Below are positions 24,667 to 58,965 of a DNA stretch of 64,000 bases, one piece after another. Positions within the stretch are counted from its first letter, which is position 1. Each line of letters starts with the position of its first letter. Source of the stretch: Humisphaera borealis (lineage in GTDB: Bacteria; Planctomycetota; Phycisphaerae; Tepidisphaerales; Tepidisphaeraceae). A program made the translations under genes and the position numbers. The stretch spans positions 3,844,001 through 3,908,000 of the forward strand of contig NZ_CP063458.1 in assembly GCF_015169395.1 (NCBI RefSeq), in the 5' to 3' direction. Under the pieces are notes generated by a model. The model was given only the letters and a program-made list of their open reading frames with translations. It was not told the origin of the DNA and did not search any database.

Positions 24667-24696
24667 AAAGCCCACGGACATCCGTCCGTGGGCTTT
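24667..24696. terminator. bidirectional terminator between rseP and the FAD oxidoreductase
   Basis: AAAGCCCACGGA pairs perfectly with TCCGTGGGCTTT around a 6-nt loop. A-rich and T-rich sides serve the convergent genes on both strands. Confidence 0.85.
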
Positions 24697-38414: not shown

Positions 38415-38579
38415 TAAGAATGCCGACAGGGGTGCCCGCCCGAGCGAAACCCTCTGACAAAGAACGGATATGGAGCCACAGATGCACACAGATCGGCACG
38501 GATCAGAACCCATGCACGCTTTCCCCGGCGACCTCGCAAGAGCTTGGTGATCCTTTCTTGCGTTTCAGAATTGTGATCG

Positions 38580-52526: not shown

Positions 52527-53183
52527 TCACTCGGCCAGAATCTTCTCCGCGGCCGCGCTGCCGATGGTGATCGGCTTACGACCGTCGGGCTTGACCACGA
52601 CGGCATCGGCGGCGGTATCGCGAGACTGCACGGTGATCGTAACGCCGGGCATCAGGCCGCACTTTTCGACGAACACCAGGAACCCCACGTCCTGATCGAG
52701 GATTCTCGCTATGCGCAGCGGCACGCGGATGGGACAGTCCGCCAGGCTGGAGGGGCGGCTGGTATCGACCTTTCCTTTGGCCGACGGGATCGGATCGCCG
52801 TGCGGGTCGACCGTGGGGTGGCCGAGCAGCGCGTCAATTCGTTCCAGCACCCTGTCACTGATGACATGCTCAAGCTCTTCGGCCTCGGCATGCACCTGCG
52901 ACCAGTCCAGGCCCAGCACCTTGACCAGGAATAATTCGACCAGCCGGTGGCGACGCAGGACGTGCAGGGCAAGTTGTTCCCCGGCGCGGCTGAGGCGCAC
53001 ACCCCCGCGGGGCTCGTAGTCCACCAGGTCGGAGTCTCCCAGGGCTTTGACCATGGCGGTCACGGTCCCGGGCACCACGCCCATCGCCGCCGCCAGCCGC
53101 CCCATCGGCACCCGACCGCTTCCGGTCTGCTGCTGCTCCAGGTAGATCTGCTTGACGTAGTTTTCGACCGTAATGCTGGGCAT
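52527..53183 (-). CDS. mntR: MntR/DtxR-family metal-dependent repressor
   Basis: 218 residues. A winged helix-turn-helix (about 5-65: ENYVKQIYLE, LAAAMGVVPGTVTAMVKAL), a dimerisation and metal-binding domain (RRHRLVELFLVKVLGLDWSQVHAEAEELEHVISDRVLERID...HPTVDPHGDPIP) and a C-terminal SH3-like FeoA domain. His, Glu and Cys ligands typical of DtxR/IdeR are present. With Mn2+ or Fe2+ it should repress uptake genes. It diverges from the outer-membrane and metal ABC genes, which are its likely targets. Confidence 0.9.
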   Translation of the reverse strand: MPSITVENYVKQIYLEQQQTGSGRVPMGRLAAAMGVVPGTVTAMVKALGDSDLVDYEPRGGVRLSRAGEQLALHVLRRHRLVELFLVKVLGLDWSQVHAEAEELEHVISDRVLERIDALLGHPTVDPHGDPIPSAKGKVDTSRPSSLADCPIRVPLRIARILDQDVGFLVFVEKCGLMPGVTITVQSRDTAADAVVVKPDGRKPITIGSAAAEKILAE

Positions 53184-53258: not shown

Positions 53259-53298
53259 ATGTCTAACTTTGAGCACTCAAAATCGAAAGGAGTCTCGC

Positions 53299-54183
53299 AT
53301 GTCATCCCATCCGCGCGCACCAGGTCTTCTTCGGCAGTTCTTATCGGTCGCCTCTGTCACCCTGCTGTCGACGGCAGGCGTCTTCGGCCAGGCGGCCGGT
53401 CCTGAACCCCGGAAGTTTGTCGATAAGTCGGCGTACAACCTCTTCTCGCCGACACCCGCGGACATGATGCGGGAAATGGCGCCCGACCGGCCTGACACCA
53501 CCGAGAGCCCTTTCACCCTCGATGCCGGCCACTACCAGTTCGAACTCAGCTTCGGCGAATGGAGAAAGGAAGGGGGCTCCGAGGAACTCGCCATCCTGCC
53601 GACGAACCTGAAGATCGGCCTGACCAACAACGCCGACCTGCAGTTGGTCGTCAATCCCTATCTCCGTACCCAGTCGGCCGGGACGTCCGACGCCGGCCAT
53701 GGCGACACCCAGGTCCGGCTGAAGGTGAACCTCTGGGGCAACGACGGCGGCGACGGCTTCTTCGGCGAAACCGCGCTGGCGGTCATGCCGTTCATCCAGC
53801 TCCCCACCGGTGCCGACGCCTTCAGCAACGACGACCACCTGGAGTGGGGCGTGATCGTTCCGCTCATCCTTCCCCTTCCTGCGGAATTCTCGCTGACCGT
53901 CATGGCCGAGTTCGACTGGGTCCGCGACGGCAGGGGCGGCTACGACACGCTATTCGTCCATACCGCGTCGCTCAGCCGGGAGATCAGTGGCCCGTTCGCC
54001 GGCTACATCGAGTATGTCGGTGTCCAGCCGATCGACGGGGACGGCGAATACCAGGCGTCTCTCGGCGGTGGGCTGACGTACCAGTTGAGTGACAACGTCC
54101 TGCTCGACTGCGGAGCCGAGGCCGGGCTGAACTCCGCCGCAGACGACCTGCGGATCTTTGCCGGTATGTCGTTCCGCCTCTAA
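53299..54183 (+). CDS. outer-membrane beta-barrel protein (MetA-pathway/transporter-like)
   Basis: 294 residues. A signal peptide (about 1-30, ending VFGQA) is followed by repeated amphipathic strands ('DAGHYQFELSFGEW', 'LQLVVNPYLRTQS', 'AGYIEYVGVQ') and a final aromatic strand FAGMSFRL. It resembles the Phenol_MetA_deg/'transporter' family of planctomycete barrels. Lying first in the metal ABC unit and divergent from mntR, it may be a pore for metal complexes. AAGGAG lies 7 nt before ATG 53299. Confidence 0.8.
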   Translation: MSSHPRAPGLLRQFLSVASVTLLSTAGVFGQAAGPEPRKFVDKSAYNLFSPTPADMMREMAPDRPDTTESPFTLDAGHYQFELSFGEWRKEGGSEELAILPTNLKIGLTNNADLQLVVNPYLRTQSAGTSDAGHGDTQVRLKVNLWGNDGGDGFFGETALAVMPFIQLPTGADAFSNDDHLEWGVIVPLILPLPAEFSLTVMAEFDWVRDGRGGYDTLFVHTASLSREISGPFAGYIEYVGVQPIDGDGEYQASLGGGLTYQLSDNVLLDCGAEAGLNSAADDLRIFAGMSFRL

Positions 54184-54228: not shown

Positions 54229-55167
54229 ATGAAAACGACGCTCTCGATTGCAGTTCTTGTTCTTGCGATGGGCCTGCTGTCCTCCGGTTGCAAACAGGGC
54301 GTTACGCCTGCCACCGGCGGAAAGCTCCGGGTCGTCTGCACGACCACCATGGTCGGCGACATGGTCAAGCGTGTCGGCGGCGATCGGGTTGATGTCAAAG
54401 TCATCATGGGGCCCGGCGTCGATCCGCACACCTATAAGCCCACGCCCGGAGATATCGCCGACCTTTCCGGCGCGGCGATCGTTTTCTACAACGGCCTGCA
54501 CCTTGAAGGAAAGATGGTCGATCTGTTCGAAGAGCAGATGCGCGACAAATCGCACGCCGTCGCCGCCGCCGTCCCCGAGTCGCGCCTTCTCGGCTGGAAG
54601 GCCGGCGAAGGCGGTGCGCACGATCCGCACATCTGGTTCGACGTCAGCATCTGGGCGACGGCGGCTGCGGCCGTCACGGAGCACCTGTCGGCCAAAGACA
54701 CCGCCGGCGCCGCAGTGTACAAGGCCAATGGCGCGGCGTTCGTGGCGAGCCTGGACGCGCTGCATGCCGAGGTCAAAGCCAAGCTTGCCGGCATCCCCCG
54801 GAAACAGCGCGTCCTGATCACCAGCCATGACGCCTACAGTTATTTCGGCCAGGCTTACGACATTGACGTCAGAGGGCTGCAGGGGATCAGCACCGAAACC
54901 GAGGCCGGCCTGCGGGAGATCAACCAGGCGGCGGAGTTCATCGTCGCCGGCAAGATCAAGGCGGTCTTCGTCGAGTCGTCCGTCAGCCCAAAGACGATCG
55001 AGCGCGTCATCGCCGACTGCCGTGCCCGCGGTTGGGACGTCAAGCTCGGCGGCGAACTCTATAGCGACGCGATGGGCGGCGCCGGAGAACACAAAGGGTA
55101 TGCCGTCGAGACGTATGAAGGTATGGTGCGCTACAACGTCGACACGATCGTCGCCGCGCTCAAGTAA
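54229..55167 (+). CDS. metal ABC transporter substrate-binding lipoprotein (MntA/ZnuA/TroA type)
   Basis: 312 residues. A lipobox LLSSGC (about 16-21), then a cluster-A1 domain: DPHTYKPTPGD and DPHIWFD supply two His ligands, VFVESSVSP the Glu and ELYSDAMG the Asp. The absence of a long His-rich loop favours Mn2+ or Fe2+ over Zn2+, though the call stays open. It is anchored outside the inner membrane and feeds the two permeases downstream. Confidence 0.92.
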   Translation: MKTTLSIAVLVLAMGLLSSGCKQGVTPATGGKLRVVCTTTMVGDMVKRVGGDRVDVKVIMGPGVDPHTYKPTPGDIADLSGAAIVFYNGLHLEGKMVDLFEEQMRDKSHAVAAAVPESRLLGWKAGEGGAHDPHIWFDVSIWATAAAAVTEHLSAKDTAGAAVYKANGAAFVASLDALHAEVKAKLAGIPRKQRVLITSHDAYSYFGQAYDIDVRGLQGISTETEAGLREINQAAEFIVAGKIKAVFVESSVSPKTIERVIADCRARGWDVKLGGELYSDAMGGAGEHKGYAVETYEGMVRYNVDTIVAALK

Positions 55168-55212: not shown

Positions 55213-56049
55213 GTGACACCTGCCCCCTCCAATCCCCCCGCTCTTGAAGTCCACGACCTGACGGTGAGCTATCATCGCAAGCCCGTCCTCTGGAACGTGG
55301 ATGTCGCGATTCCCGCCGGCAAACTGGTTGGCATCATCGGCCCCAACGGCGCGGGCAAGAGCACGCTCATCAAGTCGGTCATGGGCCTCATCCCGCTCTC
55401 CAGCGGCTGGGTGCAGGTGTTCGGCCGGCCGGTGGCATCGCAGCTCGGGCGGATCGCCTACGTGCCCCAGCGCGAAAGTGTCGACTGGACGTTTCCGGTG
55501 ACGGCGATCGATGTCGTGCTCATGGGCCGCTACGGCGCGATGCCCTGGTATAAGCGAATCGGCAGCGCCGATCGCGATCGCGCACGCGCCGCGCTGAACA
55601 AAGTCGGCATGAATGCCTACGCCAGTCGCCAGATCAGTAACCTGTCCGGCGGTCAGCAGCAGCGGGTGTTCCTGGCGCGTGCGCTGGTGCAGGAAGCCGA
55701 CGTCTATCTGATGGATGAGCCTTTCGCCGGCGTCGATGCCGCGACGGAGTCTGCGATCGTCGAGCTGCTGCAGGACCTCCGTGCCGCCGGCAAAACCGTG
55801 CTGGTGGTGAACCACGACCTGCAAACCGCCCGACAGTACTTCGACATGCTCGTGCTGCTGAACATGCGGCTGGTCGCTTTCGGACCGACGGATGAAGTCT
55901 TCACGGAGGCACTGCTCCAGAAGACCTACGGCGGACGACTGACGATCCTCGCCGATGTCGCCGAGGCTGTCGCCGAAGCCGAGCGCGGACAAGCGACCGC
56001 TAAAAATGGCAAAGGCAGTAAGCATGGCCACCTTCCGACGGGACTATGA
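55213..56049 (+). CDS. metal ABC transporter ATPase
   Basis: 278 residues. Walker A GPNGAGKST, signature LSGGQQQRV, Walker B VYLMDEPFAGVD and the H-loop NHD are intact. VPQRESVDWTFPVTAIDVVLMGRYG is typical of Mn/Zn transport ATPases (MntB/ZnuC). The start is GTG, because the gap after the binding-protein gene is filled by AAGTAACAAGTA-type repeats. Confidence 0.93.
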   Translation: MTPAPSNPPALEVHDLTVSYHRKPVLWNVDVAIPAGKLVGIIGPNGAGKSTLIKSVMGLIPLSSGWVQVFGRPVASQLGRIAYVPQRESVDWTFPVTAIDVVLMGRYGAMPWYKRIGSADRDRARAALNKVGMNAYASRQISNLSGGQQQRVFLARALVQEADVYLMDEPFAGVDAATESAIVELLQDLRAAGKTVLVVNHDLQTARQYFDMLVLLNMRLVAFGPTDEVFTEALLQKTYGGRLTILADVAEAVAEAERGQATAKNGKGSKHGHLPTGL

Positions 56050-56059
56050 ACTGGACTTG

Positions 56060-56147
56060 CCACGGATGGACACGGATGAACACGGATAAGAGAAATGCTC
56101 GGTGAACATCATGTCTCCCATCTGTGCCCATCTGTGTTCATCCGTGG
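56060..56147. repeat. CACGGAT/ATCTGTG palindrome overlapping the permease start
   Basis: The left arm 56060-56087 (CCACGGATGGACACGGATGA...) and the right arm 56120-56147 (...GTTCATCCGTGG) form an imperfect palindrome. The right arm is read in frame as the first codons of the permease, so either the repeat was recruited as coding sequence or the true start lies later. Confidence 0.7.
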
Positions 56148-57529
56148 CGACTTTTCTTCGGTCTCGGTTTCTCGCTGCCCGATTCGAAACCGCAGAGCCC
56201 TGGTACTCGCACCTGGCCCGGTTCGCCCGTGAACTGGTGGACGACCGGATCGGCACGACGGACCTGGTCGTGCTGGCGGCGATTCTGCTCGGCGTCACCT
56301 GCGGCGTGCTCGGGTGCTTCCTGATCCTGCGCCGCCAGAGCCTGCTCGGCGACGCCGTCGGCCATGCGGTGCTGCCGGGCGTGTTCCTCGGTTTTCTCGC
56401 GGCGGGTGCCCGCAGCACGCCGGCCTTGCTGCTCGGGGCGCTTGTCGCGGGTCTCCTGGCGGCGGCATTGATCGCGGTCCTTCAGCGGACCACCCAGCTC
56501 AAGGCCGGCGAGTGCATCGGCGTCGTTTTCACCGGGTTCTATGGCCTGGGCATCCTGCTGCTGAAACACATCCAGAACAACGCCGCCCGCTACCCGGGAC
56601 AGGCCGGCCTCGACAAGTTCCTCTTCGGGCAGATCGCCGGCATCTCCGCGACGGACGTCATCTACATGGCGGTCGTCGCCGCGGTGTCGCTGGCCTGTGT
56701 GGCGCTGGCGTGGCGATCGCTCGCGGCCTGGGCGTTTGATGAAGGGTTTGCTGTCAGCATCGGCCTGCCGGTCAAGGCGATCGAAACGATGATGACCGGC
56801 CTCGTTACCGTTGCGATCGTCATCAGCATTCAGGCCGTCGGCGTTGTGCTGGTGGCCGCGATGCTCGTTACGCCCGCCGCCACCGCCTACCTGCTTACCG
56901 ACCGATTGCACCGGATGGTGCTGCTGGCGGCGATGTTCGGGGCGGCGGCGGGAGTGATCGGCGCGGTCGTCAGCCTGCTCGGTGCCGACATGCCCACCGG
57001 ATCGCTGATGGTCATCGCCGGCGGCACGCTGTTCGGCTTGGCGTTCCTGCTGTCGCCACGGCACGGCCTGCTGCCGCGCCTCCGCCGGGTGTGGGAGCGC
57101 CGCCGCCGTACCCAGGCCGAGAACCTCCTTCGCATGCTCTACCTGATCATGGAAAGCCGGGCTGGCGGCGGAAAAGTCCCCGACAACGCCGACCGCCGAT
57201 TCGGCGTCTCCGATGCCGCCGGCGCCCGCGGCACCACGCCGGCAGCGGTGCGCAAGTACTGGCGTCTGGCCGCCCATCGCGGGTGGGTCGATCCGTCGAG
57301 CCCCGATCCCATGATCCTGACCGATGCAGGCTTCGCCGAGGCCCGCCACGTCGTGCGGACGCACCGGCTCTGGGAACTGTTCCTGACGCAGGAGGCGAAG
57401 ATTGCCAGCGACCATGTGCATGCCGACGCCGAAGACATCGAGCACATCCTGCCGCGCGATGTGCTCGCGAAACTCGAACATATGCTCGACTACCCGACGG
57501 CTGATCCGCATGGGAAGCCAATACCGTAA
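56102..57529 (+). CDS. metal ABC-3 permease fused to a DtxR-like domain
   Basis: 475 residues (GTG start; ATG 56111 or GTG 56144 are alternatives inside a repeat). About eight membrane helices (about 55-325) contain LLGDAVGHAVLPGV, the ABC-3 motif. Residues about 340-475 are soluble and resemble the DtxR/MntR wing and metal-binding domains ('ADAEDIEHILPRDVLAKLEHMLDYPTADPHGKPIP'), matching the same region of the repressor upstream. This suggests that the channel itself senses metal. It is followed by a second permease of the same plan. Confidence 0.88.
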   Translation: MNIMSPICAHLCSSVATFLRSRFLAARFETAEPWYSHLARFARELVDDRIGTTDLVVLAAILLGVTCGVLGCFLILRRQSLLGDAVGHAVLPGVFLGFLAAGARSTPALLLGALVAGLLAAALIAVLQRTTQLKAGECIGVVFTGFYGLGILLLKHIQNNAARYPGQAGLDKFLFGQIAGISATDVIYMAVVAAVSLACVALAWRSLAAWAFDEGFAVSIGLPVKAIETMMTGLVTVAIVISIQAVGVVLVAAMLVTPAATAYLLTDRLHRMVLLAAMFGAAAGVIGAVVSLLGADMPTGSLMVIAGGTLFGLAFLLSPRHGLLPRLRRVWERRRRTQAENLLRMLYLIMESRAGGGKVPDNADRRFGVSDAAGARGTTPAAVRKYWRLAAHRGWVDPSSPDPMILTDAGFAEARHVVRTHRLWELFLTQEAKIASDHVHADAEDIEHILPRDVLAKLEHMLDYPTADPHGKPIP

Positions 57530-57532
57530 AGG

Positions 57533-57620
57533 CAATGCTGAATGCGGAATGCTGAGTGCTGAACGTCGATCGAGTTCGCTTTAACGGGCATTTCTTATTC
57601 AGCATTCAGCGTTCAGACTT
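57533..57620. repeat. AATGCTGAATG-type imperfect palindrome between the two permeases
   Basis: Left AATGCTGAATGCGGAATGCTG and right ATTCAGCATTCAGCGTTCAG regions are imperfect reverse complements. It is related to the palindrome between mlaE and mlaF. Confidence 0.65.
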
Positions 57621-57624
57621 TTCT

Positions 57625-58965
57625 ATGAACCCTTTCCTCTGGATCCTCGGCTCCCCTCCCGACGGCTATAAGCCCGGATTGGAGACTTTCTGGCCTATCC
57701 TGGTCGAGGGTGCTCTGGTGTCGGTGGCGCTGGCACTGATCGGCTGCTGGCTCGTCGTGCGCGGGCTGTCGCTGCTCGGCGACGCGCTGGCCCATTCGGT
57801 TCTTCCCGGCATCGTGATCGGCTTTCTCATCGGTAAGTCTCTCCAGTCGGCCTGGATCCTGGTCGGCGCCACCGCCATGGGCATGGCGGCGGCGGTGCTC
57901 GTGCAGGCGGTCCGCGACAACAGCCGGGTGAAGGAAGATGCCTCGCTTGGCATCGTCTTCACCACGCTGTTCGCGATCGGCGTCGTGCTGATCAACCTCT
58001 TCGCCGGCCAGACCGATCTCGACCCCGGATGCGTGCTCTACGGGCAGGTCGAGTACTTCATCCGCACCCCGGAAAAAATCATCCCGATGGCGTGCATCCT
58101 GGGCGGCATCCTGCTGCTGATGGTCCTGTTCTTCCGCCAACTGCTCATCAGCACGTTCGATCCGCTGCTTGCCCGCAGCATGGGCATCCCGGCGACGTTC
58201 ATCCATTACACGATCATGGCCGTCCTCTCGCTGACGACGGTCGCGAGCTTCGAAGCGGTCGGCGCGATCCTTGCCGTCGCGCTGCTCGTCACGCCCGGCG
58301 CAACTGCCCGCCTCTGGACCGACCGCATGAAGCGCATGCTCCTGCTGGCCGCTTTGCACGCACTGCTGGCGACGACCATCGGCTACTGGCTCAGTCATCC
58401 GTCGATCCTCAACACGTCGGCGAGCGGGGCGATCTCGTCGGCGGGGTTCGGGCTGTTCCTGGTCAGTTGGCTCGTCGCGCCCAAACGTGGGCTTCTCAGT
58501 CAGTATCGCGTTCGCAGGCGCCTTCGGCGGACGATGGCCGAGGAGAACCTCGTCAAGACCGTGCACGAGCTGACGTCGCCGTCGCCCGCGACTGCCGCAA
58601 ACCCATCGTCCGAACCGCAGGGCACGGAAACGTCGATGCCGGCTCAGGTTCCGACGTCCGTTGCCTCGGCCCGCGTGCGCGAACTGCTGCAGATGCCGTC
58701 GTTCGACTTCGAGGCCGCACTTCGTGGCGTCATCTCCCGCGGCTGGGCCCGTGCCGGCAAAGGGCAGATCACCCTGACCCCTGCCGGCCATCGCAGGGCT
58801 CAACTGCTGGCCAGCGCCCACGAACTTTGGGAACAGTACCTGCGCCAGGAAGTTGGCCTGGCCGACGATCACCTGCACGACCCCGCCGAATGGGTCGAGC
58901 ACTTCCTCGACGAAAGCCGAATCGAGGAACTGAAGGCATCCCTCATCAAGCAAGCGCCAGGGTGA
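57625..58965 (+). CDS. second metal ABC-3 permease with C-terminal DtxR-like domain
   Basis: 446 residues. About eight membrane helices (about 20-290) with GLSLLGDALAHSVLPGI, then a Pro/Ser/Thr-rich linker (about 325-350) and a soluble C-terminus (about 352-446) with 'ARVRELLQMPSFDFEAALRGVISRGW', 'LTPAGHRRAQLLASAHELWEQYL', 'LADDHLHDPAEWVEHFLDES', again a DtxR-like winged helix plus ligand helix. It pairs with the upstream permease as a heterodimeric channel. The likely cargo is Mn2+, Fe2+ or Zn2+. Confidence 0.88.
   Translation: MNPFLWILGSPPDGYKPGLETFWPILVEGALVSVALALIGCWLVVRGLSLLGDALAHSVLPGIVIGFLIGKSLQSAWILVGATAMGMAAAVLVQAVRDNSRVKEDASLGIVFTTLFAIGVVLINLFAGQTDLDPGCVLYGQVEYFIRTPEKIIPMACILGGILLLMVLFFRQLLISTFDPLLARSMGIPATFIHYTIMAVLSLTTVASFEAVGAILAVALLVTPGATARLWTDRMKRMLLLAALHALLATTIGYWLSHPSILNTSASGAISSAGFGLFLVSWLVAPKRGLLSQYRVRRRLRRTMAEENLVKTVHELTSPSPATAANPSSEPQGTETSMPAQVPTSVASARVRELLQMPSFDFEAALRGVISRGWARAGKGQITLTPAGHRRAQLLASAHELWEQYLRQEVGLADDHLHDPAEWVEHFLDESRIEELKASLIKQAPG

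Follow-up and report, generated by a model that had tools for sequence, protein, structure and literature searches.

Two ABC-3 permeases with DtxR-type C-terminal tails beside an intact MntR gene in Humisphaera borealis

Background

In Chlamydia, the permease-DtxR fusion YtgCR is cleaved and its released tail acts as an iron-dependent DNA-binding repressor; related permease-DtxR fusions have been reported in 11 phyla (PMC5599777, PMC7755916, PMC6504234). Although these fusions occur in many phyla, the literature that was found deals only with Chlamydia, where the tail is the released repressor. A different kind of control is described for the importers MetNI and ModABC, in which paired cytoplasmic regulatory domains bind the substrate and bring about substrate-driven trans-inhibition (PMC10710835). 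No report joining "DtxR" with "transinhibition" was found in the open literature.

The window analyzed here is a stretch of 64,000 nucleotides from Humisphaera borealis (contig NZ_CP063458.1, positions 3,844,001 to 3,908,000), and all coordinates are those of the window. Planctomycetes which possess both fused tails and a complete MntR separate two possible jobs, control of transport and control of transcription, so that the ancestral role of the tail becomes testable.

Organization of the locus

Based on Pfam matches, a complete metal importer operon was identified, consisting of a divergent MntR gene and genes for a PF13557 protein, a ZnuA-family substrate-binding protein, an ATPase and two ABC-3 permeases. 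The first-pass annotation had placed a repressor, a lipoprotein, an ATPase and two permeases in one locus, and the Pfam matches bear this out. With its ZnuA-type binding protein, ATPase and pair of ABC-3 permeases, the operon has the gene set of an ABC-3 Mn/Fe/Zn importer.

The lone MntR/DtxR-type regulator (52527-53183, minus strand) is transcribed divergently from the transport operon and contains a winged helix, a metal-binding/dimerization domain and a FeoA domain, with Pfam scores of 106 bits for PF02742, 40 for FeoA and 38.7 for Fe_dep_repress. Its closest solved structures are 5zr4 and DR2539. The PF13557 protein (53269-54183, plus strand; Pfam E-value 1.6e-17), encoded between MntR and the substrate-binding protein, is likely an outer-membrane beta-barrel, and the real start of its gene is likely the ATG at 53299. 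With this start (53299-54183) it is a candidate outer-membrane metal channel within the metal operon, the barrel being probable. A homolog occupies the same place in the related locus L064 and another is found at the edge of L091. The periplasmic metal-binding lipoprotein (54229-55167, plus strand) belongs to the ZnuA/cluster A-I group (PF01297, 270 bits). The Mn/Fe-type ATPase (55213-56049, plus strand; PF00005) has an MntA-type model as its top NCBIfam match and no added regulatory domain in Pfam, where only ABC/AAA-type ATPase models match above the cut-off. The permeases, here called P1 (56102-57529) and P2 (57556-58965), follow on the same strand.

An imperfect inverted repeat with 39-nt arms (GCCACGGATG...CATCCGTGGC) lies at 56059-56148, in the gap between the ATPase and P1 genes. 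Since the P1 frame as listed takes its first residues from this repeat, the true start of P1 is likely further downstream, beyond the repeat-derived 5' end. Related 20-mers were found at 38475 and at two further sites in the genome. Another inverted repeat (57538-57616; CTGAATGC/TTCAGCATTCAGCGTTCAG), located between the permease genes, extends into the 5' end of P2 as listed, and the true start of P2 is likely internal, at an ATG near 57625. Perfect or near-perfect 22-nt palindromes (CCCACGGAC-N-GTCCGTGGG) occur twice after P2 (59033-59135) and once at 24671, and are possibly terminators or REP-like elements.

Domains and predicted fold of the permease tails

Both permeases had been proposed to end in a part resembling the winged-helix and metal-binding regions of DtxR-type repressors, and sequence, predicted fold and conserved ligands all agree with this. 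Fe_dep_repr_C (PF02742) is the metal-binding and dimerization domain of DtxR repressors. A profile search of the tails against the DtxR families matched this domain in both proteins at a cut-off of 27 bits: in P1 an ABC-3 domain (aa 56-316) is followed by Fe_dep_repr_C at aa 407-475 (E-value 1.4e-22, 80 bits), and in P2 the corresponding matches are aa 47-306 and aa 408-463 (E-value 7e-10, 39 bits). The N-terminal DtxR model of Pfam matched neither tail; a winged helix is nevertheless present in both, because sequence and fold searches return DtxR-family matches. Each permease thus has the architecture of the YtgCR type, an ABC-3 permease followed by a DtxR-type winged helix and metal-binding domain. 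The tails extend over 57077-57526 (P1) and 58501-58962 (P2), both on the plus strand.

Only three proteins in the whole genome match PF02742, namely MntR, P1 and P2. The two other ABC-3 permeases of this genome have open frames of just 320 and 363 aa and lack the domain. Among solved structures, the best sequence matches were 5zr4, DR2539, ScaR, SloR and IdeR for tail 1, and 5zr4, DR2539, DtxR and MntR for tail 2. AlphaFold2 gave confident models (mean pLDDT 86 for P1 and 83.5 for P2), and fold searches with them related the membrane domains to PsaBC and the tails to DR2539, IdeR and DtxR. Superposition of the modeled P2 tail on DtxR (residues 3-120) gave a Z-score of 14.0 over 117-119 residues. 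The first-pass annotation had also described a block common to the first permease and the upstream MntR. This DPHGxPIP block is seen as YPTADPHGKPIP in tail 1 and as HPTVDPHGDPIP in MntR; tail 2 ends without it.

In each permease, the 25 residues after the last transmembrane helix contain eight K/R and two D/E, and by the positive-inside rule this excess of positive charge places the tails, in all probability, in the cytoplasm. In the AlphaFold2 model of P1 a single helix (residues 323-353) runs unbroken and with high confidence from the membrane domain into alpha-1 of the winged helix, and no disordered linker separates permease and tail. The P2 model has a low-confidence loop (about 341-366) after alpha-1.

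Conservation of the metal ligands

Both window tails read NHEHHEEH at DtxR positions 10, 79, 83, 96, 98, 102, 105 and 106. This ligand string comprises N10, H79, E83, H98, E102, E105 and H106, so that the residues of the primary and ancillary metal sites of DtxR/MntR are complete, plus an additional H96. The corresponding residues are N341, H421, E425, H440, E444, E447 and H448 (with H438) in P1, and N331, H422, E426, H441, E445, E448 and H449 (with H439) in P2. Absence of conserved ligands from the tails of other planctomycetes would have spoken against the proposal; H79, E83, E105 and H106 were each found in at least 51 of 54 planctomycete tails, a set collected via PF02742, a criterion biased towards conserved members. 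Part of the ligand site was included in the motifs used to choose the 80 loci from other phyla; ligand conservation in these loci is biased, and they are unfit for ligand statistics. His96 is enriched in the fused tails of planctomycetes: 36 of the 45 tails in two-permease systems have it, versus 2 of 56 lone MntRs. In DR2539, the nearest relative that has been characterized, H98 is needed and a lysine stands in place of MntR E11 (PMC3327659), which resembles the K/R of planctomycete tails at the same position.

Two intact metal sites are not always needed, since most ligands are gone from the first tail in the relatives L094 and L098. In one clade of two-tail systems (L066, L073, L074, L084, L087 and L091) the first tail has H10/D98 and the second D10/H98, so that likely metal ligands are reciprocally exchanged between the two subunits. 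Among first permeases, D98 was found in 13 of those from 20 two-tail systems and in none of those from 86 one-tail systems; this co-variation was dropped as independent evidence, as it probably reflects one clade. W82 was likewise dropped as a mark specific to tails: it is found in 0 of 56 planctomycete MntRs, but in 19 of 41 regulators from other phyla and in 31 of 31 chlamydial tails.

Recognition helix and putative MntR operator

The DNA-recognition helix of the window MntR is intact, the planctomycete MntR consensus being VxPGTVTxMxKxL. The conserved helix of DtxR/MntR repressors is not found in the tails, and the mean column entropy of this helix is 0.96 bits in planctomycete lone MntRs versus 2.6 in tails. 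For pairs matched on sensor-core identity (0.4-0.99), helix identity was 0.51-0.83 among planctomycete MntRs versus mostly 0.17-0.56 among first-permease tails, and the P2 helix has 8-23% identity to that of its near relatives L064 and L065. In 31 chlamydial tails used as a control, the helix has drifted equally (identity 0.22-0.40). YtgR being a published repressor, drift by itself cannot exclude DNA binding, and it was rejected as proof that DNA binding has been lost; across the sequences compared it is a general property of fused tails. Lack of the conserved MntR recognition helix weakens the earlier suggestion that the tails bind DNA but does not dismiss it, since YtgR has drifted likewise. 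Four chlamydial tails (L192, L202, L212 and L215) have a shortened helix-turn-helix region, which is unexpected if YtgR binds DNA like a classical DtxR protein.

A palindrome, TTTTGA-N4-TCAAAA, recurs upstream of the lone MntR genes or the substrate-binding protein genes of relatives. The matching putative operator in the window (CTTTGAGCACTCAAAA, 53267-53282) lies between MntR and the operon and is one of four sites with at most one mismatch in 7.19 Mb. This agrees with MntR as the transcriptional regulator, which would leave the tails free for another task.

Relatives and origin of the tails

Planctomycete loci were selected for carrying a fused tail; among them, 17 systems (including the window) have the fusion on both permeases, six on the first only and four on the second only. 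Planctomycetes also have single-permease versions with a DtxR domain and a FeoA-like end; in six such systems (L088, L089, L090, L092, L096 and L097) the tail runs on into the FeoA-like C-terminal part, and in five of the six the palindrome (11-12 of 12 bases) lies upstream of the substrate-binding protein gene. In the loci from Verrucomicrobia, Bacteroidetes, Acidobacteria, Chlamydiae and others, usually the first permease alone is fused, and fusion of both was seen in L129, L130 and L135. The second permease of L078 and L103 lacks the metal domain but retains a stub of the winged helix. Many relatives carry a single tail, and many fused systems are not flanked by an MntR gene. Among 116 Chlamydiota genomes, 104 have the fused tail as their sole DtxR protein, and about 12 have a second. 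Nearly all of the 1203 records returned by a plasmid search match the permease part only.

In a quick tree of 123 columns, whose deep forks are weak, the lone MntRs form one group (support 99), the first-permease tails fall together with chlamydial YtgR (SH-aLRT 92), and the second-permease tails, that of P2 included, stand apart. Based on this grouping, tail 1 appears to belong to the YtgR lineage and tail 2 to a separate one. As tails and lone MntRs form separate groups, descent of tail 1 from a recent copy of the adjacent MntR was rejected, and the DPHGxPIP block is best read as ancestral DtxR-family inheritance.

Proposed mechanism and alternatives

We favour feedback at two levels. The importer is of the ABC-3 PsaBC/TroCD/YtgCD type and would carry Mn or Fe. 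When metal is plentiful, the lone MntR would repress the operon via the putative operator. The two tails would be cytoplasmic metal sensors of the DtxR type, paired under the transporter as a fixed pseudo-dimer, and on binding metal they would become locked to the transmembrane/ATPase core, so that import slows (trans-inhibition). Such locking is suggested because the metal site includes position 10 of alpha-1, and alpha-1 is continuous with the last transmembrane segment. The ligand strings, the H98 and lysine parallels with DR2539, the helix drift, the operator, the cytoplasmic side, the continuous P1 helix, the winged-helix stubs of L078 and L103 and the precedent of MetNI/ModABC (PMC10710835) were counted in favour; the equal drift of the chlamydial helices, the ligand loss in L094/L098 and the many one-tail relatives were counted against. 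That transcription is under MntR while the paired tails respond to cytoplasmic Mn/Fe by restricting transport is, in our estimate, an evenly balanced proposition. Direct gating of the channel by metal, as first suggested for these permeases, is compatible with the data and is the reading we prefer.

Alternatively, one or both tails could be cut off the permease, as in C. trachomatis YtgCR (PMC5599777, PMC6504234, PMC7755916), and then bind DNA in a metal-dependent way, repressing this operon or others. In the tree, tail 1 falls with the chlamydial tails; it is also as long as functional YtgR (the C-terminal 139 aa), and the predicted models keep the winged-helix fold in both tails. A tail repressor would, however, be redundant beside a lone MntR with its operator, whereas the fused tail of Chlamydiota is nearly always the only DtxR protein; moreover, the P1 model offers no disordered linker, and the recognition helix is not kept even between P2 and its near relatives. 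Release of a repressor is for us an unlikely explanation.

The tails might also serve as membrane docking or metal hand-over modules which bind MntR or pass it metal, so that the repressor senses importer flux. Mixed dimers are conceivable for DtxR-type dimerization domains, the repressor is encoded in the same operon region as the tails, and the tail-enriched His96 is a possible extra ligand; yet many fused systems lack an adjacent MntR, most Chlamydiota lack any, and tails and MntR have diverged into separate tree groups. This is less probable still than release, and we rank equally low a purely structural role, in which the tails stabilize the permease pair with metal as a structural cofactor and no regulation. 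The strong conservation of the dimerization domain would be equally expected of an assembly domain, and tail copy number differs among lineages, but conservation of both DtxR metal sites and of alpha-1 position 10 goes beyond the needs of pairing, and most ABC-3 permeases, including two in this genome, assemble without tails.

Beyond the preferred reading, a metal repressor may have been duplicated into both membrane subunits to give an obligate two-tail sensor trans-inhibiting transport, while a separate MntR kept control of transcription. YtgR would then be the derived case, a membrane sensor which took over the repressor job after the lone regulator was lost. We lean against this scenario as a whole, though not strongly. 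Should the tails indeed gate transport, they would be a regulatory module new to metal ABC importers, and YtgCR, too, might do a second job while still uncleaved.

Comparison with known systems

The locus shares with C. trachomatis YtgABCD/YtgCR the gene order (substrate-binding protein, ATPase, fused permease, second permease) and a DtxR-type tail which is about 140 aa long and has the same ligands, and tail 1 groups with the chlamydial tails. It differs in that the second permease is also fused and a separate intact MntR adjoins, so that the Chlamydiota pattern, a tail-less partner permease with the fused tail as sole DtxR protein, is absent. The window tails have His96 where Chlamydiota tails have R/K. 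The YtgCR tail is released by cleavage, a step that is hypothetical for the window tails.

Both permeases resemble PsaBC, the Mn importer of S. pneumoniae, in the transmembrane domain (33-34% identity; VIA Z-score of 30.8 for P2), but PsaC is a homodimer without tails. The tails have the fold and metal ligands of DR2539, IdeR, DtxR and MntR; unlike these, they are joined to permeases and lack both the conserved recognition helix of MntR and a FeoA/SH3 domain. With MetNI and ModABC the proposed logic is alike, paired cytoplasmic regulatory domains binding the transported substrate, and inhibition is suggested here by analogy. In those importers the sensor is on the ATPase, where the window ATPase has none, whereas in the window it would be on the membrane subunits and has a repressor-derived fold. 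Fusion of a permease to a DtxR domain was already known; new in this locus is that both subunits are fused, beside an intact MntR and its putative operator.
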